From: Flavobacterium sp. 9AF
Lineage (GTDB): Bacteria; Bacteroidota; Bacteroidia; Flavobacteriales; Flavobacteriaceae
Reading direction: 5' to 3'
DNA: 64,000 bases
Assembly: GCF_902506265.1 (NCBI RefSeq)
Contig: NZ_LR733556.1
Location: forward strand, 1,493,755 to 1,557,754
Below, piece by piece: positions 2,084 to 49,473 of this stretch. The position numbers and the translations under genes were made by a program. Under the pieces are notes generated by a model. It was not told the origin of the DNA. It ran no database searches and saw nothing but the letters and a program-made list of their open reading frames with translations. The number at the start of each line of letters is the position of its first letter. Within the stretch, counting starts at the first letter, position 1.

Positions 2084-2095
2084 TTTTTTGAAAAT

Positions 2096-2140
2096 CACTA
2101 TTTATAATGATTTTCTGAACGATAATTGAACCTAGTTTTG
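2096..2140 (+). promoter_or_regulatory. Island promoter with palindromic operator, copy 1
   Basis: CACTATTTATAATG (2096-2109) is a near-perfect inverted repeat. Exactly 23 nt later comes TAGTTTTG (2133-2140), a perfect match to the Bacteroidota -7 consensus TAnnTTTG. The same arrangement occurs twice at 13638-13713. If transcription starts about 12 nt after the first base of the -7 box, the palindrome is centred near -42, the usual position for an activator touching RNA polymerase. This promoter drives the 2163-7990 operon and supports the ATG at 2163 as start, because an upstream TTG at 2142 would lie at or before the expected transcript start. Confidence 0.72.
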
Positions 2141-2162: not shown

Positions 2163-2558
2163 ATGGGACTAGCAGAAAAACGTTTAGCAGAACAAATTAA
2201 AACAGATTCATTACCAAGATTTGAATCTGATCTTCAAGAAATAACAGGATATTCGGTTAAAGTAGACATAGACTGGAATACTTTTACAGCATTTGATTCT
2301 TATCCTTTAAGTCGATTAGAAAATTATGTTTTTAGTGATGTAAAAGACGCTATAAAAAAGATTTGTCAAGACGAGATGGGCAAAGAAGCTTTGAAAGAAA
2401 AGTTAACAGCTATTCATATCACTAACACAGATAAAGATGAAGAATTCAAAATGGAATTGAAAGATTCAACTTTGTTTCTTACTGAACGATTATATGGTGA
2501 CACCTTTAGTAACCACATGGGCAATATGATAGTAGATTATATTGAGCCACAATTGTAA
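2163..2558 (+). CDS. Conserved-looking hypothetical protein, 131 aa
   Basis: I do not recognise a family. The product is a small, soluble, acidic protein (131 aa) with no signal peptide or membrane segment; it opens with an amphipathic helix (GLAEKRLAEQIKTDSL) and is predicted mixed alpha/beta. The ATG at 2163 is chosen over an in-frame TTG at 2142, because the latter adds only a low-complexity lysine-rich stretch and lies too close to the predicted -7 element. It is the first gene of the 2163-7990 unit, and its stop codon overlaps the next start by one base (TAATG), so the two products are probably made together in similar amounts and may form a complex. Function unknown. Confidence 0.75.
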   Translation: MGLAEKRLAEQIKTDSLPRFESDLQEITGYSVKVDIDWNTFTAFDSYPLSRLENYVFSDVKDAIKKICQDEMGKEALKEKLTAIHITNTDKDEEFKMELKDSTLFLTERLYGDTFSNHMGNMIVDYIEPQL

Positions 2559-3235
2559 TGGAATTGTCATTAATAAAAGAATTGCCAGCTATTTCTATTT
2601 CAGATATATGCAAGCAATTGACTAATTTTTCAAAGACAACAGTTGATAGCTCCGGTCTACCCAGTCTGGAGCTGTTATTACATAATGGAACATTCATTAT
2701 TGGAAAAATTGTAGATTTTCAAGAAAATTCTGGTAAACAATATATTTGGATTGAAAATAATATAGATTTTCCCGAAAAAACAAGTGTGCTCTTTTTAGAG
2801 GTTAATCAAATTATAGGAATTAACATTGTAGATTTTGAGTCTTATCTTAGATATAAAGAATTAAGTAAACCTGCTGAAATTATTGGTGCTTTGGAATTAA
2901 AAAGAACAAAGAAAAGTACAGAGGAACTGATTGAAGATCTTTTGGGTAAAACGATAACGATAAATCTTGATATAGATAATTTAATGGAAGAAGAACGTGC
3001 TGTAATTTATAAAGGACTTCATTTAATAACAACTGTCTTTCAACAGATTTTAAGTGAAGAAATCAATAAGTTAATTATTAGTCAAAATTTAAGCACCATA
3101 GACCTCACAATTTCAGATTCTTTAGAAGTAACTCTAAATAAAGAGCTACTTTCTATTTCATTGCAAAATAAAACTTTTGAAACAACTGTAAATCAAATTA
3201 AAATATTAAAAGAAAAAATAGAAAGTATCTTTTAG
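2558..3235 (+). CDS. Hypothetical cytoplasmic protein, 225 aa
   Basis: Family not recognised. Residues 40-90 have alternating beta-strand patterning around 'LLLHNGTFIIGKIVDFQ', which recalls a small beta-barrel of the Sm or PRC-barrel kind, but this is only a resemblance. The C-terminal 130 residues are mostly helical (EELIEDLLGKTITINLDIDN onwards), with no signal peptide or membrane helix. It overlaps the preceding gene by one base and is followed after 12 nt by the propeller-like protein gene, so it belongs to the same operon. The start is fixed by the TAATG junction. Function unknown. Confidence 0.72.
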   Translation: MELSLIKELPAISISDICKQLTNFSKTTVDSSGLPSLELLLHNGTFIIGKIVDFQENSGKQYIWIENNIDFPEKTSVLFLEVNQIIGINIVDFESYLRYKELSKPAEIIGALELKRTKKSTEELIEDLLGKTITINLDIDNLMEEERAVIYKGLHLITTVFQQILSEEINKLIISQNLSTIDLTISDSLEVTLNKELLSISLQNKTFETTVNQIKILKEKIESIF

Positions 3236-3247
3236 TTATATAAAAAC

Positions 3248-4930
3248 ATGAAGTATAAGTTAATAATAGAAAGAGAAGGCATAAATCAAGTAAAAGTATT
3301 TGAAAAACAAAAAGAGGGCTTTTATGCTAATAATTGGAATTTCCCTTTAAAAGGTGATGACGAACCTATTATTTTAAGTGAATTTTATAATGAAAATCAA
3401 TTTGTAATTATAAATTGGAAAGGTTGGATACGCTTATTTGATGCCAATTCGAAAACAGTATTATTAGACTATAATTTAAATGGAAATATCGATGCAAAAG
3501 CTGTTTTTTCGATTGATAATTCAAAAGTTTATATTGCTTTAAACGATAAAGAATACAAAACATTTTTAGCTACCCTATGTTTAGCTACTCATAAAATTCA
3601 ATTGCAAGAGTTAGGAAATTTTTTTAGTTCCTATTTGCAAATAAGAAATGATGGTTGTTTGCTTTTCTATAAACAAGATTGGAAATTTGAAAATAATAAA
3701 AAAATATATAGTCACGGTTTTACGGTTTATGATCCCTTAACTCAAAAAGAAAGCTATTATAATTTACCTCATGTTCCTCATTCTTCTTACGATATCGTTA
3801 AACCTTTTATCGGTACTCAAAAAAACATAGGCATAATGCCTTTCTATGGAAATGTAGCAGTTAAAAAAGGAGTGAATAAAAGTACTCTATTTGAATATAA
3901 AATAATACTTTTCGATTTACATTCTTTTGAAATAGAGCTCTTAAACGTAAGAGATTTTGAAGAAAGCCAATTAGGATGTTTTGATTATAATTCTAAAGAA
4001 TTAGCGAATCAATTTTTAAATCCGAAAGACGATGAAGAATATCAAGAAGCTTTAACCGAATTTTGTGACAATCTAAATGCTGTATTGTTTTTAAATGATG
4101 GTTTTTGGTTGTGCTGGAGAAGTGGTATTATGAGAAAAGTATATGAAGACAAAACGCTTTCCCCTTTATTAGTAACATCTTCAATGTCCAATATGTCTAT
4201 TGTAGGTATGCACGAGTTTACTACATTTCATTCTTATTTACATAAAATAGAAGATAAAAAAGTAGTCCTTTATGAACATTCAGATTATCATATTTTTGAT
4301 CTTCCAGAGATTGCAAATGTAAAAAGTGAAGTATCAATACCTATCCAATTAAAAAAAGTTACGATAGAAGAAATTGAAGAACTAAGTTATAGTAAAGAAA
4401 AAAGTAAAGAAATTGCTAATCTTGGAAAAATAATAATTCAAGCAGATGACTTATTTGATGAGGAAAATCTTATTTACATCTTAAAACAAATTGAAAGTAA
4501 GGTTGCTAATATAGCAGAATTAGGAATGGGAACTAAACTCGTTTTCCATATTGAAGATAAAAAAGGTAAGATTTTAAAAGAACAAGATTTCTTTGAAAAG
4601 GTAATAATACTAAAAAATGCACCTAAAACAGTTCAATCAATAATAGAAAAATTTTGTCAATATCCTAAAGCCAAGTATGTTTATAGAAATGACGAACAAA
4701 CAGCGCTCTGTTTTGCCGTTTTAGAATTAGCAAAACAAGGAGAAGCCTATTTAGAAACCGTATTATTTTATTTAACCACAATCGATTTAGATCATGATGT
4801 TTTTAATAGAGAAAACTTAATTCCTTATCTAGATGAAAAATATCCTAGAGATTTTTTATTAAAAAAGGTAAAATCTGTTTCAGAAGATTTATTAGAATGG
4901 TTAGAATATTACTGGGATGAAATGGATTAA
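3248..4930 (+). CDS. Beta-propeller-like hypothetical protein, 560 aa
   Basis: No signal peptide. The N-terminal 350 residues consist of repeated short beta-strand blocks ('FVIINWKGWIRLFDANSKTV', 'GCLLFYKQDW', 'GFTVYDPLTQK', 'DGFWLCWRSGIMRKVYE') like an irregular beta-propeller. From about residue 365 the protein turns into a charged helical domain (EEIEELSYSKEKSKEIANLG), ending with a short acidic tail. A cytoplasmic protein-binding or scaffold role is a guess from the fold pattern. It is the third gene of the operon, 12 nt after the previous stop, with 52 nt before the next gene. Catalytic motifs were not seen. Confidence 0.7.
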   Translation: MKYKLIIEREGINQVKVFEKQKEGFYANNWNFPLKGDDEPIILSEFYNENQFVIINWKGWIRLFDANSKTVLLDYNLNGNIDAKAVFSIDNSKVYIALNDKEYKTFLATLCLATHKIQLQELGNFFSSYLQIRNDGCLLFYKQDWKFENNKKIYSHGFTVYDPLTQKESYYNLPHVPHSSYDIVKPFIGTQKNIGIMPFYGNVAVKKGVNKSTLFEYKIILFDLHSFEIELLNVRDFEESQLGCFDYNSKELANQFLNPKDDEEYQEALTEFCDNLNAVLFLNDGFWLCWRSGIMRKVYEDKTLSPLLVTSSMSNMSIVGMHEFTTFHSYLHKIEDKKVVLYEHSDYHIFDLPEIANVKSEVSIPIQLKKVTIEEIEELSYSKEKSKEIANLGKIIIQADDLFDEENLIYILKQIESKVANIAELGMGTKLVFHIEDKKGKILKEQDFFEKVIILKNAPKTVQSIIEKFCQYPKAKYVYRNDEQTALCFAVLELAKQGEAYLETVLFYLTTIDLDHDVFNRENLIPYLDEKYPRDFLLKKVKSVSEDLLEWLEYYWDEMD

Positions 4931-4982
4931 TGATTATTTAATGGTTGATATAAGCGTTCTATGAAATACAAATTAGAGAAAT

Positions 4983-5624
4983 ATGAATCAATCTAATTAT
5001 ACAATTGAAAAAGTATTTAAAAATGCTATAAATCAAATAAATGAATTTACAAAACATCATAAAGAAGAGCATTTTTATGCCTTTGCGATAGATAGTGGTA
5101 TGTTATGTTTAAGTAGCGAAGAAGGATTTCAAAAAATTGTTGAACAATATAGTAAAGATTGGTTAGAATCAAATAAAAAGGCAAAATCAAGAGAACATCT
5201 ACTAGATGATGAAATTGAAATTATAAAAGACGAATATGAATTTTGTAAAAAAAGTACCATTGGTAAAAATCAATTAGATAGTAATAAAATTACTAACCTA
5301 GAGGAGTATATTGAATATTGGCTAAAAATTGAAAATAAAGTAAGAGAACGTAATCTAAGAAAAGGAAATCCATATATTAATGAAGAGCGTATTGAAGCAA
5401 TAAAATATAATACAGGAAATTGGCCTTATCAAGGTTTTGGAAATTTGAATTTTGAAAGTGATGAAACCTCTTATGAAACAAAAGAAAAAACTTTTAATTA
5501 TCAATCCTATAGAGAATTTACAGATAAACTTCTTGACCTTTTTGATAAAAATAAAGATATGGCTTTTTCACAGCTAAAACGAACACCTGATTTTAAAATA
5601 ATTAAAACGAGGCATATTTATTAA
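4983..5624 (+). CDS. DUF4303-like protein, 213 aa
   Basis: The N-terminal segment 'HFYAFAIDSGMLCLSSEEGF' and the later 'NTGNWPYQGFG' resemble the conserved strands of DUF4303 proteins, a family often found beside polymorphic-toxin immunity genes. This is recalled by pattern, not by search. The protein is soluble, 213 aa, with a lysine/glutamate-rich helical middle and no signal peptide. It is the fourth gene of the 2163-7990 unit. If the family assignment holds, an immunity-like or sensing role is plausible, yet no toxin gene is visible nearby, so a function should not be assumed. Confidence 0.62.
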   Translation: MNQSNYTIEKVFKNAINQINEFTKHHKEEHFYAFAIDSGMLCLSSEEGFQKIVEQYSKDWLESNKKAKSREHLLDDEIEIIKDEYEFCKKSTIGKNQLDSNKITNLEEYIEYWLKIENKVRERNLRKGNPYINEERIEAIKYNTGNWPYQGFGNLNFESDETSYETKEKTFNYQSYREFTDKLLDLFDKNKDMAFSQLKRTPDFKIIKTRHIY

Positions 5625-5636
5625 TACTTTAATAGG

Positions 5637-6800
5637 ATGAAAAAAAATATTTTAGAAATTGAAAATGAAGTAAAGAAATATAGTTCTCAAAATAAAGGAA
5701 AATACAATCTTATTTTTGAAAAGATTAGATCCTATAAATCTTCTGATTATACTGAAGATTATTATGAGTTCCAATCTTATATGCGTGGAATAACTAACAG
5801 CTATTTTGAGCAAATGATTCATGAATATAATGAATCTAAAAATATCGAGTTAAAGAAGGATTGTATTGCTATTGCTGATTATTTCTTAGATAGAAGGTAT
5901 GATGTTTTGATTCGTTTAGATGACGAGGAAGCCTTTGAAATTGTTTTGCAATACGCAGAAGACTTTTTAAAAGGAGAAACTTTTTTATTTGATCAACAAA
6001 AATATGTTAATGGTCAGTCTTTATTGGCATTAGCACAAGCCTATTATAACCCAAAATTCAAAGAGCGTGTTGTCGCTTTCTTTATAAATGCATTTGAAGT
6101 TGCCAAAAAATATGCTAAAGATAAAGATAAATATGGACTAAGTAGGACTAGAGAAGAGCCTGATGGTACAACTCTTTTAGAACTAGTTTCTGCCATTTCA
6201 TCTTTAAACCATAAGGATAGAAATCAATTTTCTGATTTAGTTTTTGAAATCTATTCATTTAGTTGTAAAGAAGAAAGAACTTATGAAATGAATCAAGCAT
6301 CAGGTTTTATAGCGCTTTTATTGCCTTTTTATAAAGCTTCATTTGATATGAAAATTATTGATGAAGCAATAAACGTAACAGGAAAGTTTTATAAAGAAAA
6401 TACTTTTGTACATCAAACACTATATACAAAATGGATTTTAGAAAAAAATGCAGCAGAAGCATTGGATTATTATTTGAATAAAGAAAATGAAAAATGGCCA
6501 AATTTTGCAATAATGGCATTAACCGATCTCTCTTGTAAAGAAGCTTTACCATATTTTATAGAAAAGCAAAAGGAAACAAAAGATCCACTACTTTGGGAAA
6601 TCTATGAAGAAGCTATACAAAGATTAAAAAACAACTACAAACCTTTACAAGTTGAAGACAGAATGATTCTATTAAATGGAAATGTAACCCCAACGCAACG
6701 TGCATTAGGTGCAGAATCGAATAATGTTTTTGTACAACGAGTAAAAAAGAAAATCAGTTATGATGATACTGTTTATGAAACCGATGATGATTCCAATTGA
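5637..6800 (+). CDS. Helical-repeat hypothetical protein, 387 aa
   Basis: The product is almost entirely alpha-helical, with paired helices of about 35 residues (for example 'EEAFEIVLQYAEDFLKG', 'SLLALAQAYYNPKFKERVV', 'NFAIMALTDLSCKEALPYFIEKQ'), like a HEAT/ARM-type solenoid, and no membrane segment. The last 50 residues are less ordered and end in an acidic tail (YETDDDSN). The gene starts 12 nt after the DUF4303-like gene in the same operon. Such solenoids usually bind other proteins; nothing shows a catalytic role. Function unknown. Confidence 0.68.
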   Translation: MKKNILEIENEVKKYSSQNKGKYNLIFEKIRSYKSSDYTEDYYEFQSYMRGITNSYFEQMIHEYNESKNIELKKDCIAIADYFLDRRYDVLIRLDDEEAFEIVLQYAEDFLKGETFLFDQQKYVNGQSLLALAQAYYNPKFKERVVAFFINAFEVAKKYAKDKDKYGLSRTREEPDGTTLLELVSAISSLNHKDRNQFSDLVFEIYSFSCKEERTYEMNQASGFIALLLPFYKASFDMKIIDEAINVTGKFYKENTFVHQTLYTKWILEKNAAEALDYYLNKENEKWPNFAIMALTDLSCKEALPYFIEKQKETKDPLLWEIYEEAIQRLKNNYKPLQVEDRMILLNGNVTPTQRALGAESNNVFVQRVKKKISYDDTVYETDDDSN

Positions 6801-6820
6801 ACTCTAGAAGATGAAACTAA

Positions 6821-7990
6821 ATGAAAACCAACGGGCTACTTTTAATACTATTCTTAACAACAATATATTCTCAAAATAAAAATATGGAAAATTATCAATA
6901 CGATAGAGAATTACTAAATGAAAAAGGTCAACGACATGGTACACTAGTATCGACAAGTTATTTGTTTGATGGTTTGGCTTACAGTCATATTTATGAAAAT
7001 GGTGTCTTGATGCAAACAACCGATTCTCGTTTTCAGATTGGGAATGAAAAAGAATTAGTAGGCAAGTATAAAGAGGGTATGCCATTTGAAGGTTATTTCG
7101 TTTCTGAAAATGAGCTTGAAATTCCAGAAATAACCTATTATGAAAAAGGAGTTTTTCAAACAAAATATACGACTACAATAATGGCATTAATGGAAGTAGA
7201 AATGACAGGAATAAAGCCAAAAATGATTAAATCTACTTATAAAGACCAAAAACTTTGGCAAGGAATACATCATAAAGGTTTTAAAATGGATGGTTCAAGT
7301 CTTCTAGCAACCGAATACTATGAAAACGGAGTAATTACAAATGTTGATCTTTGGATCTTAGCCATGCATTATGCCGAACTTATAAAAATTAAGTTTTTAC
7401 CCAATGGTTACGAAATTTATAGTGAAGGTAAAGATGACCCTGAAGGTGATCCAGAAACAGATACAAGACCTGCGAGTATTGCAGTACAATTTACTGATAC
7501 AAATAATGATAATGGAAACGTAAGTTTTAGTATAGCTAATAAATTGGTAGCAAAGTATCAATTTAGTAAGCAAGATCTTTTAAGTAAAATAGATTGGGTT
7601 CAAAAAATGATAATTTATTCTTTATCAGAAGATGATACTATTTTACTAACTAACAAATTTAATTTTGAAGGCGATGATAAATTCGAGAAAGAATATCCCT
7701 ATTCCAATAAAAATATGATGCTTGGGTTTTATACCAACTTAATCTATAAACCCATTCCTATCTTTACTCCTAAAAAGGATAATGATTATTTGAAAATTTT
7801 TGATTTTAAAGAAGAAACGATTGAAAATACTTTTTTAATTATCAATGAAGAAGGAAAACCATTTATGGGCACTTTTATTGAAAAAGAGACAGTCACTTAT
7901 AAGCTTTCCAAATATGAAAATTATAAAGTTGTAGAAACAAAAGATCAATTATCATTTGAAGATATTAAAAGAATATGGTTTGTTGAATAA
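6821..7990 (+). CDS. Exported MORN-like hypothetical protein, 389 aa
   Basis: The N-terminus 'MKTNGLLLILFLTTIYS' is a short signal peptide, so the product is probably exported to the periplasm or surface. The first 170 residues contain short strand repeats built around 'Y.NG' or 'Y.KG' ('YENGVLMQT', 'YKEGMPFEGYF', 'YEKGVFQTKY', 'YYENGVITN'), a MORN/antitoxin-YwqK-like pattern. No lipobox is seen. It is the last gene of the rightward operon; its stop is followed by a convergent hairpin (7989-8011) shared with the end of the leftward operon. It is the only clearly exported product of this unit. Function unknown. Confidence 0.66.
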   Translation: MKTNGLLLILFLTTIYSQNKNMENYQYDRELLNEKGQRHGTLVSTSYLFDGLAYSHIYENGVLMQTTDSRFQIGNEKELVGKYKEGMPFEGYFVSENELEIPEITYYEKGVFQTKYTTTIMALMEVEMTGIKPKMIKSTYKDQKLWQGIHHKGFKMDGSSLLATEYYENGVITNVDLWILAMHYAELIKIKFLPNGYEIYSEGKDDPEGDPETDTRPASIAVQFTDTNNDNGNVSFSIANKLVAKYQFSKQDLLSKIDWVQKMIIYSLSEDDTILLTNKFNFEGDDKFEKEYPYSNKNMMLGFYTNLIYKPIPIFTPKKDNDYLKIFDFKEETIENTFLIINEEGKPFMGTFIEKETVTYKLSKYENYKVVETKDQLSFEDIKRIWFVE

Positions 7991-8011
7991 CTATTTTCCA
8001 ACGAAATAGTT
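7989..8011. terminator. Hairpin between convergent island operons
   Basis: AACTATTT (7989-7996) pairs with AAATAGTT (8004-8011) around a 7-nt loop, exactly between the stop codons at 7990 and 8010. There is no clear T-run on either side, so termination efficiency is uncertain. Position and symmetry suggest a shared bidirectional transcript end. Confidence 0.45.
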
Positions 8012-10181
8012 ACTCAACTTCTTTAGTATATTGATTTTTGTTTATAAAAAAATCAATATACTCTTTTGGCATTACGTTATCTGGCAATTCGGCATCTGGA
8101 TCCAAAGCAAAAATTTCTTTTTCTATTTTCACCATTTTATAAAAGATTTTATGATAGTGTGCTATAATATTTTTTGTCGCATTTTCATCAGATTCTGAAC
8201 GATACATCACTGCGAGCCGACCTAGTTGTGTTTCTAAAAAATCTACTTCATTAATTTTACCCTTGTTCATTAAAATCTCTTGAACTATCTTTGAATTATC
8301 GCCTTTTTCTTGTGCTTCTTTAGCAAATGAAATAGCTTTTTTTCTATTTTTTAATTTGTAATGAATTTCAGCTTTATTAGCCACATAAATTGCCATTTCA
8401 GGAACTAATCGATTGGCTTTTTCAAAATAGGGCAATGATGCCTTGTATTCTAAATCATCATCAAGCATGCAGCCATAGCAGTTGTAAATGTGAGCCAAAG
8501 CGCTAGAATCATGAGATGTTTTTTGAATAAAATAGGCTTCTTTATCGTAACAAACTTTTTTGCCATGAAGGTAGAATAGTAATCGCACTTTGTAGAAATA
8601 AAGCATGCTTTCAGTTGGGTTTTCTGCAATAGCTTTATTGCATAATTCTTCTGCTTTAGAATATTCCTTTTTTTGCATTAATTCATAAATATCTTTATAA
8701 ATGCTATTTCTCTCAAATGATTTTTTCTTTTCTTTAATCTTATTTTGAATTTCAAGAAGAGTCTCCTTAAATATGTCTTTTTGCCAAAAGTCAAATTCGA
8801 TAGATTGGTCTTCAATTTTTAGAGTTAAAGCAATTGTCCCATCTTCAATATTTACGGTCAACAAGAGTTCAAAAGTAGAACTCTTGTTTTTGCATATAAT
8901 CTCGTATAATTTTTCAGTATCTATCGCTATTTCTAGCCATTTTGTTCTATCAAAAGCATCACAATAGAAGAGCATTTCTTTTGGTAAACTATTTTGAAAG
9001 ATGTAATGCTCTGTTTTTGCAGCATCAAATCTATTTCGCAACGATTCATTATTATTACAATCATAAATACATACTAAATGATTGTGTGATAAATCTAAGT
9101 GTAATGTCCAATTAAAAAGTGTTTCTTTTATTTTTTCTCTTATCTGTATTCTTTCTCGGGTTTGATTGTCTAGAAGTAATGTAGAAAAAGCTTCTTTTTT
9201 TTCAGAAGAAGTCATTATTTCATAATATTCATTATTGTTTTCCGTTTTTTCAAAGTTTGTTTTCAACTTCTTTTGCAATAGTAATTTTGTACCCGAAAAA
9301 ATTTTAATTTCTCCTTTTTCATGAAAATTAATAGACAAAGGGTTTGTTGTTTTACCTCTAAGTATTTTGGATTTATTTAACGGATATCTGTTTTGCTCAA
9401 AAATGAGTTGCTTATAAGGAAAAACAATTTCATCTTGATAATATAGGTCTTCAGAAATAGAATAATAGGCAATCCTTACTAAACTTGTATTTACAGGAAC
9501 AGACATTCTTTCGTTAAAAGCTGGAGAATAAAGTATTCTATTTCTTTCAGTAATATTTAGAGATGCTAGTGTTTTTTGAGACTCAAATTCTCTACCTTTT
9601 TTAAAAGTACACTTTGCTATTCTTTTTTTAGTACAATTAATAAAATGGATTTCATCTATTTTAATTAAAAATTCTGGATCAAATTTAATGTGCAACGAAA
9701 TTTCAGTATAATTCAATGCTTGAGAATACACCAAATAATAGTATTTCGTATATCTAAACACATAATAAAAAATTGGTAATCCAAACATAATAGAAGCCCA
9801 AATATAAAAGACTGTATGATTAAAAACAGCTGTCTTTTGATACTGGACTATTAAATAGACACCTACATTAGCGATAGTTAGTATGGAAAGGATAGCTAAA
9901 TAACTAGGTAATAAAGACAATAAGACTAAGAATCCAGGCATACCTGTAGAGCGGCCATAATTATTCCCGTTAGGTGTAGCTCTTTTTAAACCATGATATA
10001 TAGCGTTAATAAAGAGTACTCCTACTCCAATAAACAAACAAGTAAATGTAAATCCTAAAAATAACAAGCTAAAATAGGCTAGTATCATACTCACTAGAAT
10101 AGGCGCAATAGGAAAGACAAGAAATTCCGATAAATTGAAGTAAGGAGCTTCAACTTTTATATACTGCTTATAAGTATTCAT
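8010..10181 (-). CDS. Membrane protein with C-terminal TPR domain, 723 aa
   Basis: Residues 20-150 hold four or five hydrophobic segments ('FLVFPIAPILVSMILAYF', 'FTCLFIGVGVLFINAIY', 'LAILSILTIANVGVYLIV', 'IWASIMFGLPIFYYVF'). A beta-rich soluble part follows (150-470), then TPR-type helical pairs at about 490-650 ('EYSKAEELCNKAIAENPTE', 'YKASLPYFEKANRLVPEMA', 'NRKKAISFAKEAQEKG'). The protein is likely anchored in the inner membrane with a cytoplasmic TPR scaffold. It is the last gene of the leftward unit 13619-8010 and begins 3 nt after the preceding stop, so is translationally linked to it. No enzyme motif seen. It may be the membrane dock for the soluble scaffold proteins of the island, but that is inference. 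Confidence 0.7.
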   Translation of the reverse strand: MNTYKQYIKVEAPYFNLSEFLVFPIAPILVSMILAYFSLLFLGFTFTCLFIGVGVLFINAIYHGLKRATPNGNNYGRSTGMPGFLVLLSLLPSYLAILSILTIANVGVYLIVQYQKTAVFNHTVFYIWASIMFGLPIFYYVFRYTKYYYLVYSQALNYTEISLHIKFDPEFLIKIDEIHFINCTKKRIAKCTFKKGREFESQKTLASLNITERNRILYSPAFNERMSVPVNTSLVRIAYYSISEDLYYQDEIVFPYKQLIFEQNRYPLNKSKILRGKTTNPLSINFHEKGEIKIFSGTKLLLQKKLKTNFEKTENNNEYYEIMTSSEKKEAFSTLLLDNQTRERIQIREKIKETLFNWTLHLDLSHNHLVCIYDCNNNESLRNRFDAAKTEHYIFQNSLPKEMLFYCDAFDRTKWLEIAIDTEKLYEIICKNKSSTFELLLTVNIEDGTIALTLKIEDQSIEFDFWQKDIFKETLLEIQNKIKEKKKSFERNSIYKDIYELMQKKEYSKAEELCNKAIAENPTESMLYFYKVRLLFYLHGKKVCYDKEAYFIQKTSHDSSALAHIYNCYGCMLDDDLEYKASLPYFEKANRLVPEMAIYVANKAEIHYKLKNRKKAISFAKEAQEKGDNSKIVQEILMNKGKINEVDFLETQLGRLAVMYRSESDENATKNIIAHYHKIFYKMVKIEKEIFALDPDAELPDNVMPKEYIDFFINKNQYTKEVE

Positions 10182-10184
10182 ATA

Positions 10185-10775
10185 TTAGAATATTTCAATT
10201 ACTGAATTTTCATCATCAGAACAAGGCTTTTGAGTTGGCAAATATGAAGTTTCCAATTTTGAAATTACTTCTCCCGTTTTTTTATTTAAAGTATAAATCC
10301 CAAAAGAATATGCATTAGTGCGTTCTATATGATATTCATTTTCTGTTTCAGTTATGGTATGTATAAAATCAGGATTAAAAGTACCAAAATGCTTTTTCAC
10401 AAATGCGATTGCTTTTAAATCATATACTGAAGGTTTGTAAAGTTGACCTAACAATGAACTAACGTAAGAAACACTTTGCTTTGTAACTAGATTTACAGTA
10501 ATCTCAAAGATAGCACTTTCTTTTTTCGATGAAATAAACCTTACAATTCTTTCAAATTTGACAATTACTTCTTTCGAGTTTTTATAAGCACTAATTTTAT
10601 AATCAGCTTTATTTATTTTAAAAGTTGGATTTTTTTCTTTTGCCAAGTTAAAAACAAGTTCAACTAATTCTGATTTATTTTTTATTTCCAATTCTTTTAG
10701 CGTGAAATTCATCGTTTTTTGTGCATAACTTAAAAGCATAATAAGGATAAATGTATAGGATAGTCGGTTTTTCAT
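10185..10775 (-). CDS. Exported hypothetical protein, 196 aa
   Basis: An N-terminal signal peptide ('YTFILIMLLSYAQ') precedes a 175-residue soluble domain with mixed strands and helices. The pattern 'VYDLKAIAFVKKHFGTFNPDFIHTITETENEYHIE' followed by 'SFGIYTLNKKTGEVISK' ends in a beta-hairpin typical of small periplasmic domains. The family is not recognised. It lies between the LRR gene (30-nt gap) and the TPR membrane protein gene (3-nt gap) in one operon, so a periplasmic partner of that membrane protein is plausible. Confidence 0.66.
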   Translation of the reverse strand: MKNRLSYTFILIMLLSYAQKTMNFTLKELEIKNKSELVELVFNLAKEKNPTFKINKADYKISAYKNSKEVIVKFERIVRFISSKKESAIFEITVNLVTKQSVSYVSSLLGQLYKPSVYDLKAIAFVKKHFGTFNPDFIHTITETENEYHIERTNAYSFGIYTLNKKTGEVISKLETSYLPTQKPCSDDENSVIEIF

Positions 10776-10805
10776 AAAAAAATTTCGTACTGAATTATAA
10801 ATGAT

Positions 10806-13619
10806 TTACTCTTCCTCAATAGCTTTTAAAAAATCCTCATCTTTCCAGTATTTTTTAAAATCGGTATCGTCTAAGAATTGTTGTTTTGTTTTTCCTAAAC
10901 GAATGGATTCTTTTATGTATAGTAACATTTCTTCTTTTCTATCAAAATGAGCATAACCACAAGCGAGATTGAATGCTAGCAAAACTTGTGTAATTTCTTC
11001 TAGTTTTCCTATTTCTTTTAGAAGCAGATTAAAATAAGTTTCATCATTCAATTTGATTGCCGCAATTACGTTCAAATACAAAATATCTTCATCGAGATAA
11101 TTTTTAATTCTTGGAGATAAAGTATAAAATAATGTACGACACCTTTCATTTTCGCCATTATTAACTAAGTAATAGATGTCATAATATAAATTGTCGTATG
11201 AAAATTGGTTTTCCGAGCGATCGAAAATTGCTGTTATTTTTTCTAAAACCCAATCAGAATTGTTTTTGTCTTGATGATTTGATAATCTGTTAAAATAGAA
11301 AGAAAGTAAATTTCTGATTTCTCCAGAATATATCTTACTCCTTTCCTCTTTACAAATGGTTATCGCATAGTTTCTATAAATTTGTAAATCTTCAAATGTA
11401 TAATTTTCATTTCTATTTAAATGTAGTAGTAACAATCGTATAACTTCAGAAATAAGATCGATTGTCTTTTCAGAATTGTTTTCAGCAAGCCAATTGTCAA
11501 AATATAAAATTATTTTTTCAGGATTTGTTTTATGAAATTTTGATTCTAAAATTTGTGCCATATAAGAGGCTTCTTCTTTGTTTCTTAAATAAGAAACACA
11601 TTGAGTTATCCACTTTTCATCGAGCGTATTTTTTTGTATTGCTTTTACAACATTATAAAGGTATTCGTCTTCTAATTTCTTCGAAATTCCATTACCTAAC
11701 ATCGCAATTATTTTTGGAAGATTTTCAGTATTTAGATTCTCTAAATCAGAAATTAAGGCTTCTTGTAGTTTGTTTTTTTCTTTTGTTTCAGTAAGGAATG
11801 TATTCAATTCAGGTAAAGCCACAGCTTGAATTTGGGTTAAAATAGTATCAAAATATTCTTTCCCAAAGTAAGTTCGTGCTTCTTCTTCATACTTAAAGAA
11901 TACTTTCAGTAATTTTTTCTGTAAATCCACATCAGTAGTATTTTCGAAAGCTGGAATAAATAATTCTTCCATTTGATCACCACCTTCACTATTTAATAGG
12001 TCAGTAGATGCTTTTTTAAGGAGTTGGTACAATGCTTCTGAAGTAAATTGAGGGAAAAAATTATCTATTAACTGATCCTGAACTGTGTATCCCCAATAGC
12101 GATGTCCTGCATCATAATATTCACATGCCTTGTAGAATTGTTTAACAATCTTTTTTTGAGTGGTACAATTTTTTCTTGAAATAATTTCTTCCAAAACTAG
12201 CAAAGTTGCATTATAATTATCGTATACCGATTTAAAAGCCATCTTAAAAAGCGCAATTAATGTTGCGTCAGAAAGATTATTGATATGCCTTTGAATGGCT
12301 TGATCTAGTAGTTCAATTTCGGTAATTTCTTCTCCTTTGACTTTTAGGTTAAAATAACTCGCAAGTGGATTTTCTTTGTTATTATAATTGAGCTTTATAT
12401 GTTTTGATAGTTGTAAAATAGCTTCCTCAAATTTTAAAATGTCTTTTAATTCTAATTGCTTTTTAATTAAATCAATAGATGGAAGAGTTTTAAATCGATT
12501 TCTTTTTTCCCAGTTTCTTAAAATTTTATAATCTGCTTCTAATTCTTTAAGTGTTGGATGATTGTAAATAGGGTTAAAGTCGTTAATATAGCGGCAATTT
12601 TCGATATCTAAAGTTTCTAAAAAATTTAAAGTAGCAATTACTTCAATGGATTTCATATAATTTGAAGAAAGATCTAGTTTTTTTAAATGTAAATCTTTTA
12701 ACCCTTCCAAGTCTTTTAATTCATAAGAGGTTGATAAGTTTAAATCTTCTAAACAAGAAAAGCTAGAAAAAGCATCACAATTTTTTAAAGTTGAATATCG
12801 TAAACTAAGTTTTTTTAATTTTTTAAGAGAAGTGATAGGAGTAATATCAAAAACACCACAGGAATTCAAACTTAATTCTTCTAAATGCTCAAATGTTCCA
12901 ATAATTTCAGGAATTGGTTTTAAATACTTGGACTCTTGTTTATCTCCATGATTTAAAGAGTTGTCTAGATTGAGTTTTTTTAATTTTTTTAAATTACCAA
13001 AACTATTGGGTAATTTTATTAAGGAGTTACTAATTTCTAAAACTTCTAAATTTTCTAATTGTGTAATAACCTCAGGAAAAGATTGTAAGTCAAGACCTCT
13101 TAAATTCAATTCTTTAAGTCCTTTTAAATTGGATATAGAATTAGGTATATTGCGCAATCCACACTCAACTAAATTTATAGATTCTAATGAAATAAGAGTC
13201 TCTATTTCATTAGGTAATGTTTGTTTTTTTAAGAAGTTACCCCAAATTTTAATCTTTTTCAAATTAGGAAAACAAGTAATTATTTGTTTAGTTTCTGTTT
13301 CTACGTTTCTTACACTTACATATAGTTCTTCTATCTGAGGCATTGGCTTCATTTTTGTAAAATCGCAATTTCCCCATAGACATAAATCTTGAATATGGAT
13401 AAGTTGTTCTAAATTATTTGGAGTTTCAAATAGATTTTCTTTAGATAGACCATGAAAACTTAATTTTTTAATATTAGGGTATTCATTTATGATTAAAGGC
13501 AATTCTATTTTTTGATTGTAATTATCAAAACGAATGGCAGTGATATTTTCAGGATGATTTATTTCAGAAAAGGTAAACTGATTTTCTGCTAAGTCGATTC
13601 TTATTTCTGTTGTGTTCAT
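10806..13619 (-). CDS. Leucine-rich-repeat protein with helical C-terminal half, 937 aa
   Basis: Residues about 65-360 form more than ten leucine-rich repeats of 22-24 residues ('LESINLVECGLRNIPNSISN', 'LKELNLRGLDLQSFPEVITQ', 'LKKLNLDNSL'). The remaining 560 residues are alpha-helical solenoid-like, with TPR-like pairs near the end ('LAFNLACGYAHFDRKEEMLLYIKESIRLG'). There is no signal peptide, so it is probably cytoplasmic. I place the start at the ATG at 13619 (MNTTEIRIDL); the longer version from 13640 would put its first codons inside the predicted -7 element at 13638-13645. It is the first gene of the leftward island unit. Likely a protein-binding scaffold; function unknown. Confidence 0.82.
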   Translation of the reverse strand: MNTTEIRIDLAENQFTFSEINHPENITAIRFDNYNQKIELPLIINEYPNIKKLSFHGLSKENLFETPNNLEQLIHIQDLCLWGNCDFTKMKPMPQIEELYVSVRNVETETKQIITCFPNLKKIKIWGNFLKKQTLPNEIETLISLESINLVECGLRNIPNSISNLKGLKELNLRGLDLQSFPEVITQLENLEVLEISNSLIKLPNSFGNLKKLKKLNLDNSLNHGDKQESKYLKPIPEIIGTFEHLEELSLNSCGVFDITPITSLKKLKKLSLRYSTLKNCDAFSSFSCLEDLNLSTSYELKDLEGLKDLHLKKLDLSSNYMKSIEVIATLNFLETLDIENCRYINDFNPIYNHPTLKELEADYKILRNWEKRNRFKTLPSIDLIKKQLELKDILKFEEAILQLSKHIKLNYNNKENPLASYFNLKVKGEEITEIELLDQAIQRHINNLSDATLIALFKMAFKSVYDNYNATLLVLEEIISRKNCTTQKKIVKQFYKACEYYDAGHRYWGYTVQDQLIDNFFPQFTSEALYQLLKKASTDLLNSEGGDQMEELFIPAFENTTDVDLQKKLLKVFFKYEEEARTYFGKEYFDTILTQIQAVALPELNTFLTETKEKNKLQEALISDLENLNTENLPKIIAMLGNGISKKLEDEYLYNVVKAIQKNTLDEKWITQCVSYLRNKEEASYMAQILESKFHKTNPEKIILYFDNWLAENNSEKTIDLISEVIRLLLLHLNRNENYTFEDLQIYRNYAITICKEERSKIYSGEIRNLLSFYFNRLSNHQDKNNSDWVLEKITAIFDRSENQFSYDNLYYDIYYLVNNGENERCRTLFYTLSPRIKNYLDEDILYLNVIAAIKLNDETYFNLLLKEIGKLEEITQVLLAFNLACGYAHFDRKEEMLLYIKESIRLGKTKQQFLDDTDFKKYWKDEDFLKAIEEE

Positions 13620-13637
13620 AATATACTTGTTTAGATA

Positions 13638-13682
13638 CAAAAATAAGTGCTCTAAAAATGTAGACTTTCACTATTTATAGTG
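13638..13682 (-). promoter_or_regulatory. Leftward island promoter using the shared palindrome
   Basis: On the minus strand the palindrome at 13669-13682 is followed after exactly 23 nt by TATTTTTG (13645 down to 13638), a perfect TAnnTTTG box. Transcription would start near 13633, giving a leader of about 14 nt to the ATG at 13619. This geometry matches the copy at 2096-2140 and the rightward promoter on the other side of the same palindrome. Confidence 0.7.
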
Positions 13683-13713
13683 ATTTTAAATTTTTTGAAC
13701 GATAGTATCTTTA
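13669..13713 (+). promoter_or_regulatory. Rightward island promoter with perfect palindrome, copy 2
   Basis: CACTATTTATAGTG (13669-13682) is a perfect 14-bp inverted repeat. Exactly 23 nt to the right lies TATCTTTA (13706-13713), one base off TAnnTTTG, and exactly 23 nt to the left lies the leftward -7 box. One regulator dimer on this site could therefore act on both divergent genes. TGAACGATA also occurs in both rightward copies (2116-2124 and 13696-13704), but at a different distance from the palindrome. Confidence 0.72.
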
Positions 13714-13749
13714 CAGAAGTTGTAAAATGGAAATTTAATTTTTTTTAAG

Positions 13750-14754
13750 ATGAATAAAAACGACGAATTATCAATTGAGCTTTTTAATTTATTAGATACT
13801 TATAAATACACTCTTGATTTAGTTGAAAAGGCCGTTGAATTAGTGAAAAAAGGAGCCGATGTAAATTATAAGCAAAAAGAGTATCCGTATGAGACAAGTT
13901 TATATAGGTGTTTGTCTTCCGGTAAAAATGAATATAAACTAAATATGGTTGAACTTTTGATAGCAAACGGAGCTGATGTTAACTTAGTAGCTGATATTTT
14001 TTCTCCATTAAGTCAGGCTGTAACGAAAAGTGATGTTGAGATTATTCAACTTTTACTAAAAAATGGAGCAAATGACTTTAGTTATTCTTTAAAAAATGCA
14101 ATTGAACAAGATAAAATTGAAATAGTACAATTGTTAATTAATTATGGTGCAAAATGTAATTGTTTTGAAGACTATAATTGTTCATTCTTGGAATTTTGCA
14201 ATGAACCATTTAGAGTTAAAAAAGAGGATTACCATTATGAAAAGACACCAGGATTAGCAATAGCAGAATTGTTAATTAAAAACGGTGCAAATCCTAATGG
14301 AGTTGAAAATGCCTCATCGAGTCCTATATCAGAAGCGATAAGGCATGATTTTATTGAATTAGTAAATTTATTACTACAAAACGGAGCAGATTTTACAGAT
14401 GAATTGATTTTTTGTTGCAACACAGTAGAAATGACCAACTTCTTATTGGAAAAAGACATATTTGATAATACGTTTTGTAAAAACCATATAGGGCAAAATG
14501 TACTTATCTATAATGTAATGCAATCCAATTATGAATTAGTGCACTATTGGATAAATTCTGGAATTGATTTGTATGATTTTGACAAACAGGGTTTTACTGC
14601 TTTTCATTATTTGATTATGAAAGAAAACAGGGATGTTTTTGAACATTTTTTACCGTATTTCGATATTAAGAAATGTAATACAATACAACCCATCTTAGAT
14701 TTAATCGACCATAAAAAAATGAAAGCACAAATAGAAGAAATGTTAATTGATTGA
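13750..14754 (+). CDS. Ankyrin-repeat protein, 334 aa
   Basis: The protein has at least five ankyrin repeats, with the signature 'VELLIANGADVNL', 'EIIQLLLKNGAN', 'EIVQLLINYGAK', 'IAELLIKNGANPNG' and 'ELVNLLLQNGADF' between residues 20 and 220, followed by degenerate repeats to the end. No signal peptide or membrane helix, so it is predicted to be cytoplasmic. The gene stands alone on the plus strand, divergent from the LRR gene and sharing its palindromic operator. It converges with the response-regulator gene, whose stop codon is only 10 nt away. It probably mediates protein-protein contact; no catalytic domain is attached. Confidence 0.85.
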   Translation: MNKNDELSIELFNLLDTYKYTLDLVEKAVELVKKGADVNYKQKEYPYETSLYRCLSSGKNEYKLNMVELLIANGADVNLVADIFSPLSQAVTKSDVEIIQLLLKNGANDFSYSLKNAIEQDKIEIVQLLINYGAKCNCFEDYNCSFLEFCNEPFRVKKEDYHYEKTPGLAIAELLIKNGANPNGVENASSSPISEAIRHDFIELVNLLLQNGADFTDELIFCCNTVEMTNFLLEKDIFDNTFCKNHIGQNVLIYNVMQSNYELVHYWINSGIDLYDFDKQGFTAFHYLIMKENRDVFEHFLPYFDIKKCNTIQPILDLIDHKKMKAQIEEMLID

Positions 14755-14764
14755 AAAACAAAGA

Positions 14765-15400
14765 CTAATCTAATAAGCCAAGTTCAATAGCAAACTTTAC
14801 TAAACCTGCTGTATTCTTTACATTGAGTTTAGATAATAAATTTCTTTTGTGCGTATTTACCGTATTCAAGCTGATAAAGGTTTTTTCAGCAATTTCAGCA
14901 GCCGTTAATTGTTTGGCAATTAGCACCAGAATTTCTTTTTCTCGATTGCTTAATTCGGTGGTTGATGAAAGATTTTTTTTCAGGTTGGTTTCATATTCTT
15001 TATGAATAGCAGCGACTTCTTTAGAAAAATAATGTTCTCCTGATTGTACTTTTTTAATAGCATATAAAAGTTCATCTTTTTCTGCATTTTTTAAAAGATA
15101 ACCATCTACGCCTAAACGATTTAACTTAGCGATAATGTGTGCGTTGCTGTGTGTAGTTAGAATGATAATCTTTAAATCGGGATAATTTTTTTTAAGAATT
15201 TTTGTTGCATCAACACCATCCATTTCGGGCATACTAATGTCTAATAAGAGTACATCGGCTGTATTCTCTTCGAGTAATTTTAGCAGTTCTTTTCCATTGG
15301 AAGCTTTTCCTGTTACAGTAATTTCAGGAACGTTTCTTAATAAAGAAATCAATCCTTCTAGAAACATAGTGTGGTCGTCGGCTATGATAATGTTTGTCAT
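14765..15400 (-). CDS. NarL/FixJ-family response regulator
   Basis: Residues 1-120 are a receiver domain with acidic pair D8-D9, phospho-acceptor D54 ('LLLLDISMPEMDG'), T82 and K104 ('GYLLKNA'). Residues 148-211 are a LuxR-type helix-turn-helix ('LSNREKEILVLIAKQLTAAE', 'SLNTVNTHKRNLLSKL'). It is a DNA-binding transcription factor activated by phosphorylation. It lies 6 nt downstream of the histidine kinase gene 15407-17533 and is cotranscribed with it. NarL-type dimers bind short inverted repeats, and this pair borders the island whose three promoters carry such a repeat, so it is a reasonable candidate regulator of the island (inference only). Confidence 0.93.
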   Translation of the reverse strand: MTNIIIADDHTMFLEGLISLLRNVPEITVTGKASNGKELLKLLEENTADVLLLDISMPEMDGVDATKILKKNYPDLKIIILTTHSNAHIIAKLNRLGVDGYLLKNAEKDELLYAIKKVQSGEHYFSKEVAAIHKEYETNLKKNLSSTTELSNREKEILVLIAKQLTAAEIAEKTFISLNTVNTHKRNLLSKLNVKNTAGLVKFAIELGLLD

Positions 15401-15406
15401 GTTTGC

Positions 15407-17533
15407 TTATATTATAGGTATTTCAATGTTAAAAATGGCACCTCTATTAGGTGTGGAATCAATTTGTAAATTACCATTGAGTTGCTGGATTCGGTTTTTA
15501 ATATTGGTTAAACCAATGCCTTCTTTATTATTTTCCACAGCAAATCCTTTTCCATTATCTTCAAAAATAATATTAAATAGGTTTTCAATCAAATTGAGTT
15601 GTAATTCAATACTATTAGCTTGAGAATGCTTAATAGTATTTGTAATTAATTCTTGAATAATATGGTACACTTCATTAAGAATGGGTTCTTCAATTTTATT
15701 GATTTCATTTCTTGGGTGTGCCGAAAAATAAGATTGTAGATGACTGGCTTCTGCTAATTTGTTTTGGTATTCTTCTACAAATTCACAAAAATTATCTTGG
15801 TGAAAACGTTTGGGCAATAAGTTGTGAGAAATGCTTCTTATTTGATTATAAGTATCATTAATTTGGGCATTTATACGTTTAATTTCATTTTCTTTACCAT
15901 AAGTTGAATTGTTTAATTGGAGCTTAATGGCTGCTAAATTTCCTCCTACGGCATCGTGTAATTCTTGTGCTATGCGAATGCGTTCTTTATCCTGACCTTC
16001 AATTTCAGCTTTCACTAATTTTAATTCCTGATCTTTTAAAAGCGCTTTGTTTTTTTGTTCGCTAATCTCTTTTTGCTTTTTGTTAATTAAGATTTGCGCT
16101 TTTTGTTTTTGATAATATACAAATGAGAGTGCAATCACAGGAATAAGAAGTACTAGAAAACCTATAATAATGATGTTACGAACTTGTTTTTCTCTTAAAA
16201 TTTCAGATTCTTTCAACTGTTTGTCTTTCTGCAACAAAGTAATCTGGTTGGCTTTATTTTGGGTTACTTCTTGTAATTTTAAGACTTCATTTTCACTCTG
16301 TTTTTTCTCAATTGCTTTCTGTAAATTAAGGTTTTCAATGGCTCTTTCTTGGTTTTTCAATAAGAGCATTTTATTATTGTTTTTTAACGTCAAATCTTTG
16401 ATTTCGTTTTCTTTTTGTAAGGTTTTAAACTTAATGTCCAATTCGTTTATATCTTGATCATTTTGTCTTTTGGAAATCGAATCACTAATTTCTGCATAGC
16501 GAGTCATAAGTGCATAAGCATTTTTATAATTGCCTTGTGCTACGGCTATTTCTTTTAATTTAAGATAAATGCTTTTTTGTTGGTCTAAAAAATGATATTC
16601 TAAAGCGACATGTAACGCGTTTAAGTAATGGAGTTCCGCTTCTTGAAGTTTATTCTGAGAATATAAGATTTCACCAATATTTTGATTCACAATAACTTCG
16701 ATATTGTATAGTTTTCCTTTTTTAGAAATCGCTAAACATTCCTTATAATACTTTAATGCTTCTGGGATATTATCGATATAAACATAGTTTACACCAATAT
16801 TCAATGCACTTATGGCCTGACATTGCCAATTATTTTTTTCTTGGCATATACTTTTTACTTTTTTGGAGTAGTTGTTTGAGGTTTCATAATCTTTATTTTG
16901 AACATAAATAGAGCCCAAATTAATATAACTACCTATAACAATTTCTTCATCTTCTGTATATTTTAAGCATTGATTGAAGTATTTCTCAGCATTTTTATAA
17001 TCTGATAACTTATTATAGATATTAGCTAATCCATGAAGATTCGAATAATAAGGATATGCTTTTTTTTGATTTTCAACAATTTCAATTCCTTTTAAGTGGC
17101 ATTTTTTGCTGATTTCAAAAAGTCCTTGTTTGTTATTCGCTAATCCTAATAAGTTATAACCACCAGAGGCTAATACTCTTCTAATGGAATCGTTTTTAAT
17201 AGATTCGGAGCCTTTTAATGCTTTGTTCGCATAAAACTTCACCGAATCGAGTATCATTTTTTTATTGTAATAATGAGAGAGCAAGAGTTGTATTCTTACA
17301 TAAGATTCTTTGGTTTTTAATGTTTGAAGCAATTTTTGCGCTCCTTCTTTGGCTTCTTTTGCTTGATTGTTATTTAATAAGTCAAATAAGGGATTGATTT
17401 CTTGTTTTTCTAATTCCGCTAAGTTGTCATGACTAAGCGTAAATGATTTCTTTCCTATTTCTTGACCTGTAACAGGAATAAAAAAAAGAAGGAAACAATA
17501 AAAACAAAAAAATCTTAGTAATAATTGTATCAT
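15407..17533 (-). CDS. TPR-containing sensor histidine kinase (HisKA_3 type)
   Basis: Order of parts: signal peptide (1-23), a periplasmic TPR array (about 50-340, for example 'NAEKYFNQCLKYTEDEEI', 'EALKYYKECLAISKKGK'), a coiled coil, one membrane helix ('NIIIIGFLVLLIPVIALSF', about 450-470), a second coiled coil, then the dimerisation/phospho-acceptor region with H526 ('RIAQELHDAVGGNLAAIKL') and a HATPase with 'IIQELITNTIKHSQA' and 'DNGKGF'. This is the NarX/DegS-like class that phosphorylates NarL-type regulators, matching the gene directly downstream. The periplasmic TPRs probably sense a peptide or protein state; the signal is unknown. Confidence 0.92.
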   Translation of the reverse strand: MIQLLLRFFCFYCFLLFFIPVTGQEIGKKSFTLSHDNLAELEKQEINPLFDLLNNNQAKEAKEGAQKLLQTLKTKESYVRIQLLLSHYYNKKMILDSVKFYANKALKGSESIKNDSIRRVLASGGYNLLGLANNKQGLFEISKKCHLKGIEIVENQKKAYPYYSNLHGLANIYNKLSDYKNAEKYFNQCLKYTEDEEIVIGSYINLGSIYVQNKDYETSNNYSKKVKSICQEKNNWQCQAISALNIGVNYVYIDNIPEALKYYKECLAISKKGKLYNIEVIVNQNIGEILYSQNKLQEAELHYLNALHVALEYHFLDQQKSIYLKLKEIAVAQGNYKNAYALMTRYAEISDSISKRQNDQDINELDIKFKTLQKENEIKDLTLKNNNKMLLLKNQERAIENLNLQKAIEKKQSENEVLKLQEVTQNKANQITLLQKDKQLKESEILREKQVRNIIIIGFLVLLIPVIALSFVYYQKQKAQILINKKQKEISEQKNKALLKDQELKLVKAEIEGQDKERIRIAQELHDAVGGNLAAIKLQLNNSTYGKENEIKRINAQINDTYNQIRSISHNLLPKRFHQDNFCEFVEEYQNKLAEASHLQSYFSAHPRNEINKIEEPILNEVYHIIQELITNTIKHSQANSIELQLNLIENLFNIIFEDNGKGFAVENNKEGIGLTNIKNRIQQLNGNLQIDSTPNRGAIFNIEIPII

Positions 17534-17595: not shown

Positions 17596-18039
17596 TTAAT
17601 AGTTCATTTTTTTAATAACATAGGTAACAATACCCCAAATCATAAATTCGTTTTCTTCAATGACCTCAATCGGTTTGTAAGAATCATTTTCAGGGTAGAG
17701 AAATAATTTTTGATCGATTATTTTTATTCTTTTTACGGTAAATTCCCCATCGATAAAACAAATAGCAATTTTATTATTGCTAGGCTCTAAACTTCGGTCT
17801 ATTACTAAAATGTCTCCATCATCAATACCAGCACCTATCATAGAATTGCCACTGGCTTTAGCATAGAATGTAGCTTCTTTATTTTTTATTAAAAAAGCAT
17901 CTAAGCTAATTCGGGTGCCTTCAAAATCGGCAGCAGGAGAAGGAAAGCCTGCTTTTATACCTGCAGCAATATAGGGTAACTCGATGTTTGAATCGGTTTT
18001 TGGAATAAAAAAATGAAGTTTTTTATTATGTTCTAACAT
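17596..18039 (-). CDS. umuD: UmuD-like S24 autoprotease (Pol V subunit)
   Basis: The 147-aa protein has the LexA/UmuD layout: cleavage site A30-G31 in 'IKAGFPSPA', catalytic serine S66 in 'GNSMIGAGI', and catalytic lysine K103 in 'FTVKRIK'. There is no DNA-binding domain, so it is UmuD and not LexA. RecA-stimulated self-cleavage should give UmuD', which joins UmuC in error-prone translesion polymerase V. The gene follows umuC and overlaps its 3' end by 7 nt. The order umuC-umuD is the reverse of the E. coli umuDC operon, so UmuD is translated second here. Confidence 0.92.
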   Translation of the reverse strand: MLEHNKKLHFFIPKTDSNIELPYIAAGIKAGFPSPAADFEGTRISLDAFLIKNKEATFYAKASGNSMIGAGIDDGDILVIDRSLEPSNNKIAICFIDGEFTVKRIKIIDQKLFLYPENDSYKPIEVIEENEFMIWGIVTYVIKKMNY

Positions 18040-45658: not shown

Positions 45659-45672
45659 AGTCAATTGGGGAA

Positions 45673-46836: not shown

Positions 46837-46869
46837 ATTCAAATTTAATATTTCGTTTTATAACAAACA

Positions 46870-49435: not shown

Positions 49436-49473
49436 AGTTAACACATTTTAATTGTTTGCTTGTAATTCTATAT

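Follow-up and report, generated by a model that had tools for sequence, protein, structure and literature searches.

A variable island of repeat-scaffold genes in Flavobacterium sp. 9AF with a shared predicted operator, a linked two-component system and a possible polyimmunity-like role

Introduction

Flavobacterium sp. 9AF carries ten consecutive genes, mostly for anonymous proteins (g1 to g10, positions 2163-14754), within a 64,000-nucleotide stretch of contig NZ_LR733556.1 (1,493,755 to 1,557,754), here called the window. Do these genes form a functional unit, and of what kind? A preliminary description, made from the letters alone, counted ten genes, and all ten open reading frames (ORFs) were found, with gene starts refined after the initial ORF list. 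Our best explanation as a whole, advanced tentatively and at slightly below even confidence, is that a gene island recurrent in Bacteroidota is present here as one of its alleles and forms a single regulon under a shared 16-bp palindrome that precedes its transcription units. With the same reserve, its cargo is proposed to resemble a sensor-controlled, polyimmunity-like defence island rather than a fixed complex.

Recurrence of the Island

The genes fall into three apparent transcription units, namely g1-g6 and g10 on the plus strand and g9-g8-g7 on the minus strand. Gaps between genes measure 12-52 bp within the plus operon, and the two gaps of the minus operon are 3 and 30 bp. The spacing is tight, but the "tight overlaps" reported earlier were overstated, as the sole true overlap is one base at 2558 between g1 and g2. 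Scans of the island proteins with Pfam, NCBIfam, PADLOC and PHROGs returned no enzyme, transposase or toxin, as had been noted earlier; the last three added no mobile element, and Pfam detected no type IX signal in any of the ten proteins.

Homologues of these genes are not scattered independently over other genomes; they recluster elsewhere and share one operator, which agrees with the functional unit suggested earlier. The survey covered 199 Flavobacterium genomes including the source, i.e., 198 congeners, and all co-occurrence p values from it are optimistic because the species are related and independence is overstated. Among the congeners, 11 carried g1 and 3 carried g5, and near-full-length homologues of g7 were present in 9. 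Every other genome with g5 or near-full-length g7 carried g1 on the same contig, mostly within about 25 kb, and g1 occurred in 9/9 congeners with g7 (hypergeometric p = 5e-14). Fetched neighbourhoods contained homologues of g1, g2, g5, g6, g7, g8 and g9 in differing combinations and, alongside them, other families of this kind, including leucine-rich repeat (LRR), tetratricopeptide repeat (TPR), DUF1266 and Imm11-like proteins. When GTDB genomes were scanned, the number of g1 loci rose to 80, in Bacteroidota and in other phyla. Islands recurred outside the genus in Niastella, Cytophaga, Fulvivirga, Sporocytophaga and a Flammeovirgaceae genome (UBA5867), and g1 was found alone or with g2 elsewhere, including in Acidobacteria and Planctomycetes.

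Predicted Palindromic Operator and Promoters

The palindrome TCACTATTTATARTGA occurs at 2095-2110 upstream of g1 and at 13668-13683 between g9 and g10. Both copies are exact to the consensus and are predicted operators: TCACTATTTATAATGA (2095..2110, plus strand) lies about 50 bp ahead of the g1 start codon, and TCACTATTTATAGTGA (13668..13683, plus strand) lies between the divergent g9 and g10. When the DNA upstream of g1 was aligned across five species, the single conserved block was the one that reads TCACTATTTATAATGA in the window. The Bacteroidota -7 consensus is TAnnTTTG. A probable -7 element of the g1-g6 operon, TAGTTTTG (2133..2140, plus strand), is invariant across the same alignment. 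That of the g9-g8-g7 operon, TATTTTTG (13638..13645, minus strand), was identified by its match to the pattern and stands between the second operator copy and the start of g9. Both operator copies have their centres about 45 bp ahead of the predicted start sites for g1 and g9, which suggests an activator-like position.

The pattern TCACTATTTWTARTGA has three exact copies in the 4.2-Mb genome, two of them in the island. The third precedes an L,D-transpeptidase lipoprotein gene (YkuD, scaffold and peptidoglycan-binding domains), as it does in F. profundi and F. jejuense. With up to two mismatches allowed, 25 of 26 Flavobacterium loci had a site between -70 and -90 relative to g1, whereas the reversed control gave none in 74 loci; in Fulvivirga kasyanovii the site was at -112. 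Over the fetched loci, some of which are one genome fetched twice and hence not all independent, 73 of the 83 sites with at most one mismatch lay within 250 bp before a gene start, compared with two control sites overall. The downstream genes were g1 (25), g7-like genes (11), g9 (4), g10 (3) and several other island families. A site ahead of g9 and/or g10 was also present in J27, F. jejuense and F. profundi.

Adjacent Two-Component System

A response regulator gene (RR; 14765..15400, minus strand) lies 11 bp past the end of the ten-gene stretch and encodes a Pfam receiver and a LuxR-type helix-turn-helix domain. The neighbouring sensor histidine kinase (HK; 15407..17533, minus strand), conserved beside the RR, has an N-terminal hydrophobic segment, a TPR region, one transmembrane segment, and HisKA_3 and HATPase domains, as judged by Pfam and hydropathy. 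With RR orthologues defined by an E value of at most 1e-60 in the 198 congeners, an orthologue was present in 9/11 genomes with g1 and in 7/187 without it (Fisher p = 5e-10), and the exact operator co-occurred with the RR orthologue in the same set (p = 8e-10). Placement at g1 loci was read from contig coordinates; the RR at the g1 locus was the best match among 5 to 18 candidates in Niastella, UBA5867, Aureivirga and the L127 genome, and in Sporocytophaga the best match was away from the g1 locus. In the same-site species, the HK-RR pair has beside it a UmuDC-like pair recognised by eye (a small S24-type peptidase and a Y-family polymerase; 17596-19295, minus strand).

The recurrence, the shared operator and the two-component linkage exceed chance and are strongly non-random. 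At the level of sequence, the island is linked, physically or phylogenetically, to a TPR histidine kinase and a LuxR-type response regulator. The HK-RR pair is the probable regulator of the island, and the RR is the probable binder of the operator. The boundary drawn in the preliminary description was too narrow, for the unit probably includes the predicted operator ahead of g1 (2095-2110) and the neighbouring RR and HK genes.

The operator is also found beyond the islands. In several g1-less genomes it was still close to the RR orthologue, and in some of these genomes the operator near the RR precedes genes for giant HYR/FG-GAP proteins, followed by a PorP/SprF gene. The one giant protein that was scanned bears a CHU_C type IX signal, and another operator-controlled gene encodes a Por_Secre_tail protein. 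The main rival explanation starts from these genes: the kinase would sense periplasmic stress, and the island proteins would be accessory scaffolds for the wall and for presenting giant type IX adhesins, and would take no part in antagonism. Such an envelope-stress or surface-remodelling regulon would account for the operator-controlled L,D-transpeptidase, the CHU_C-tagged giants beside PorP/SprF and the Por_Secre_tail protein, and several island proteins are membrane-bound or apparently exported. However, the variable content, adjacent paralogues and allelic replacement described below, and the Imm11 and UPF0167 proteins of sibling islands, are unexpected for a housekeeping response, and g7-g1 pairs exist where the giant protein is elsewhere. 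We consider this programme unlikely, at roughly half the weight of the polyimmunity-like proposal.

Gene Turnover at a Fixed Site

In five species the island occupies the same site between a TonB-receptor gene and the RR-HK pair, and its contents differ. With units separated by slashes, the window has g1-g2-g3-g4-g5-g6 / g7 g8 g9 / g10; F. jejuense has g1-g6 / g7, g5-like, Imm11-like, g9, g9 / g10; J27 has g1-g3-g6 / g8, a gene of no assigned family, g9 / UPF0167, g10; F. profundi has g1-g3-g6 / g8 / g10; and NRK F7 has a three-gene version, g1-g3-g6. Paralogues stand next to each other, as in the two g9 genes of F. jejuense and the two or three g7-like genes of others, and in F. profundi only the two ends of g9 are left as a deletion scar (L146:15421-15640).

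The preliminary description had proposed a multi-protein assembly, a view that accords with the tight operons, the common operator and the protein-binding folds. Nevertheless, the gene set is not constant: content varies among close relatives at the same site from three genes up, members are missing or duplicated, and paralogues adjoin, so that the assembly is unsupported and in our judgment very improbable.

Synonymous divergence (dS) between the window and F. profundi was 0.25-0.42 for the TonB gene, g10, RR and HK, and 1.3-1.7 for g1, g3, g6 and g8. Between the window and F. jejuense it was 0.27-0.83 for island genes and 0.99 or more for the flanks. This contrast between inside and flanks points to block replacement by recombination between lineages; the simplest explanation is that cargo blocks have been replaced between species at fixed flanks, giving two allele classes. 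In the F. jejuense comparison, dN/dS was 0.16-0.37 for island genes vs. 0.07-0.10 for flanks, which indicates weaker constraint, and positive selection was not demonstrable.

The exchange of two divergent classes of allele at one fixed site would also suit a kin or self-recognition locus, in which the alleles would set the compatibility of neighbouring cells and giant surface proteins would be the contact partner. Giant surface proteins do belong to the same regulon and adjoin the island in several genomes, but the window site has no operator-controlled giant protein. With alleles sampled from one genome per species, this explanation is considered improbable. The patchy distribution and fast turnover could likewise be those of an anti-phage defence island; however, no nuclease, NTPase or other effector domain was recognised, and the sole strong PADLOC match was to the ankyrin repeats of PDC-M72A, which leaves this the least likely of the explanations weighed here.

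Folds and Families of the Individual Proteins

The g1 gene (2163..2558, plus strand) encodes a small alpha/beta protein of 131 aa (MGLAEKR... family) that is the core of the island family. Its AlphaFold2 model is confident (pLDDT 93.5), and nothing significant was found in the PDB by fold search or by profile search of PDB sequences. Fold matches were weak and scattered, some of them zincin-like (best VIA Z 7.2, Foldseek E above 0.2), and were not used. The g2 product (2558..3235, plus strand; 225 aa) joins a small N-terminal beta domain, Sm/SH3-like by eye, to a C-terminal half homologous to g1 (hhalign probability 96.8, E = 2e-10), and its homologues adjoin or stand close to g1. Members of the g1 family that lie outside islands (L087-L128; Acidobacteria, Planctomycetes, Gemmatimonadetes and Bdellovibrionia) have varied neighbours, and the operator was not found at those loci. 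Flammeovirga and Saccharicrinis have a g1 with a second domain fused to it (L088:8819-9982, L091:8825-9982); the neighbouring genes were assigned by eye to g2, a further g1, an M48-like protease, a BspA-type LRR protein and an HK-RR pair. In F. jejuense a second g1 locus (L149:3903-5147) contains what is left of a shortened g2, and two operator-like sites lie next to a 1167-aa ORF.

The propeller suggested earlier for g3 (3248..4930, plus strand; 560 aa) was not borne out, the best beta-propeller match having an E value of only 0.08; g3 is limited to the five same-site species, with 73% identity in F. jejuense and 53-55% in the other three. For g4 (4983..5624, plus strand; 213 aa), an immunity-like resemblance to DUF4303/DUF4241 persists, but the score of 21.8 bits is below the Pfam cut-off of 23. 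A search of 397 family genomes yielded one distant relative of g4, in another genus and among small genes, with a reverse transcriptase and a transposase close by; a contig end is near, so a toxin link could not be shown. Literature searches yielded no paper on DUF4303 and none tying DUF1266 to immunity. The helical solenoid of the earlier description stands as no more than a suggestion for g5 (5637..6800, plus strand; 387 aa), whose homologues are 55-57% identical in the islands of three congeners and 38% in Cytophaga. The g6 protein (6821..7990, plus strand; 389 aa) has a hydrophobic N-terminus, is apparently exported and has homologues in sibling islands; its MORN-like character was retained only as a weak MORN_2 match (E = 0.011), at 16.2 bits against a cut-off of 29.6.

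The TPR and membrane anchor reported for g7 (8010..10181, minus strand; 723 aa) were recovered in an AlphaFold2 model (pLDDT 80) with N-terminal helices, beta domains and TPR at 488-642, and Pfam TPR matches were weak. A fold search was dominated by TPRs and was uninformative on the beta domains. Sibling islands have g7 paralogues of 260-320 and about 640 aa in which the C-terminal part varies. The last part of g7 also exists as a separate small gene (L037:5431-5706), and a membrane-anchored family (F5) has some members that carry a C-terminal LRR module and others that lack it (L047:12193-13899, L045:14381-16084, L037:687-1982); together these suggest C-terminal module shuffling. The g8 protein (10185..10775, minus strand; 196 aa) is apparently exported, and its homologues adjoin g7 in sibling islands, some being about twice as long with the domain repeated. 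The LRR fold of g9 (10806..13619, minus strand; 937 aa) was corroborated by Pfam LRR_14 (E = 3e-16), and its C-terminal end is TPR-like, matching NCBIfam TPR_END_plus; F. jejuense has two tandem copies and G105 a shorter version. The ankyrin fold of g10 (13750..14754, plus strand; 334 aa) was likewise recovered (Pfam Ank_4, E = 1e-23).

Evidence on a Possible Immunity Role

The earlier hint of a conflict or immunity setting, which the description itself called weak, gained support from sibling Imm11 and UPF0167 proteins, from allelic replacement and from the position of the g4 relative among small genes. Sibling islands contained Imm11 above its Pfam cut-off (27.6 vs. 22.1 bits), UPF0167, and ankyrin and LRR families. 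UPF0167 includes E. coli CbrC, which has been linked to colicin E2 tolerance. Imm11, Imm-Ank and LRR are among the listed immunity families (PMC3482391).

A mechanism can be proposed. The kinase would sense an envelope or contact signal, and the RR would bind the palindrome and turn on g1-g6, g9-g8-g7 and g10 jointly. The cargo of LRR, ankyrin, TPR and membrane or exported proteins would act like a heterogeneous polyimmunity locus in which different incoming toxins are each bound and neutralised by a different protein, with g1 and g2 as a constant core. As the operator also precedes giant type IX genes and the L,D-transpeptidase gene of the clade, the response would probably combine immunity with reinforcement of the wall and surface.

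Several observations weigh against the polyimmunity-like proposal or its regulatory part. In the window island, only the generic LRR and ankyrin repeats passed a curated immunity-family cut-off, and no toxin gene was seen beside an island protein. No recombinase flanking the island was recognised by eye in the window ORFs and same-site loci, although no profile search of all flanking ORFs was made. The operons are opposed, whereas typical polyimmunity loci are co-oriented, and some of the proteins, at 560-937 aa, are long for an immunity function. Type VI secretion system subtype iii (T6SS-iii), detected with the Bacteroidota TssC model (PF17541), co-occurred weakly with g1 (5/11 vs. 29/187, p = 0.02, uncorrected for genome size or relatedness); with the VipB model, none was detected in any Flavobacterium. 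Large islands are present in genomes that lack T6SS-iii (G060, G151), and the idea that the island depends on a T6SS-iii of the same cell was therefore rejected. No operator was seen upstream of the HK in the window, and one genome (G130) has g1 and the operator with the RR absent at the threshold used. Finally, g1 occurs by itself, with neither island nor operator, in Acidobacteria and other phyla, which hints that its role is more general.

A broader proposal, which we think unlikely but worth stating, is an undescribed social or defence regulon of Bacteroidota, in which the TPR kinase and LuxR-type regulator would control type IX giants and a swappable, intracellular repertoire of scaffold proteins via one palindrome. 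It would tie contact sensing to an exchangeable repertoire for immunity or recognition around g1/g2. With the present results the previously anonymous cluster can be treated as a defined, testable regulon: its operator is named, its regulator has a candidate, and its alleles can be compared. If the immunity role holds, a polyimmunity-type repertoire would be under dedicated two-component control and co-regulated with type IX surface proteins, and the widespread g1/g2 family would gain its first functional setting. From a limited literature search, we know of no description of a polyimmunity-type repertoire with such control.

Other Features of the Window

Two paralogues on the minus strand (44483-45664 and 48260-49444) appear by eye to fuse a response-regulator receiver to a family 2 glycosyltransferase. 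Each has a similar second glycosyltransferase nearby (45673-46842 and 55477-56685, by eye).

Comparison With Known Systems

Flavobacterium loci that pair type IX adhesins with PorP/SprF proteins (SprB/SprF type) resemble the arrangement in relatives in which the operator precedes giant type IX genes, with PorP/SprF genes alongside and the orthologous HK-RR pair next to them. However, the island differs in that its own ten proteins have no Pfam type IX signal. The rAID orphan-immunity arrays of Bacteroidales (PMC12247911) share with the island their occurrence in Bacteroidota, putative orphan immunity genes without effectors and horizontal turnover, and the conserved intergenic palindrome of the island may be a counterpart of their intergenic motif. 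In contrast, rAID arrays are co-oriented with genes of about 100-300 codons, whereas the island has mostly longer genes (131-937 codons) on both strands, no tyrosine recombinase recognised by eye, and a promoter-positioned palindrome as its intergenic element.

Heterogeneous polyimmunity loci (Zhang et al. 2012, PMC3482391) are similar in being arrays whose genes are structurally unrelated and closely spaced, whose content varies strongly between relatives and which no toxin interrupts; both have LRR and ankyrin proteins, and sibling islands have Imm11. The island differs in its opposed operons, constant g1/g2 core, shared operator, linked two-component system and large proteins, in most families having no known toxin partner, and in that no recombinase was seen. 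Its variable content, adjacent paralogues, lack of toxins, LRR and ankyrin proteins, and sibling Imm11 and UPF0167 fit these loci better than they fit a fixed complex. Since the two-component system, operator, constant core and protein size fall outside their description, the island may work like a heterogeneous polyimmunity locus and is not classed as one.
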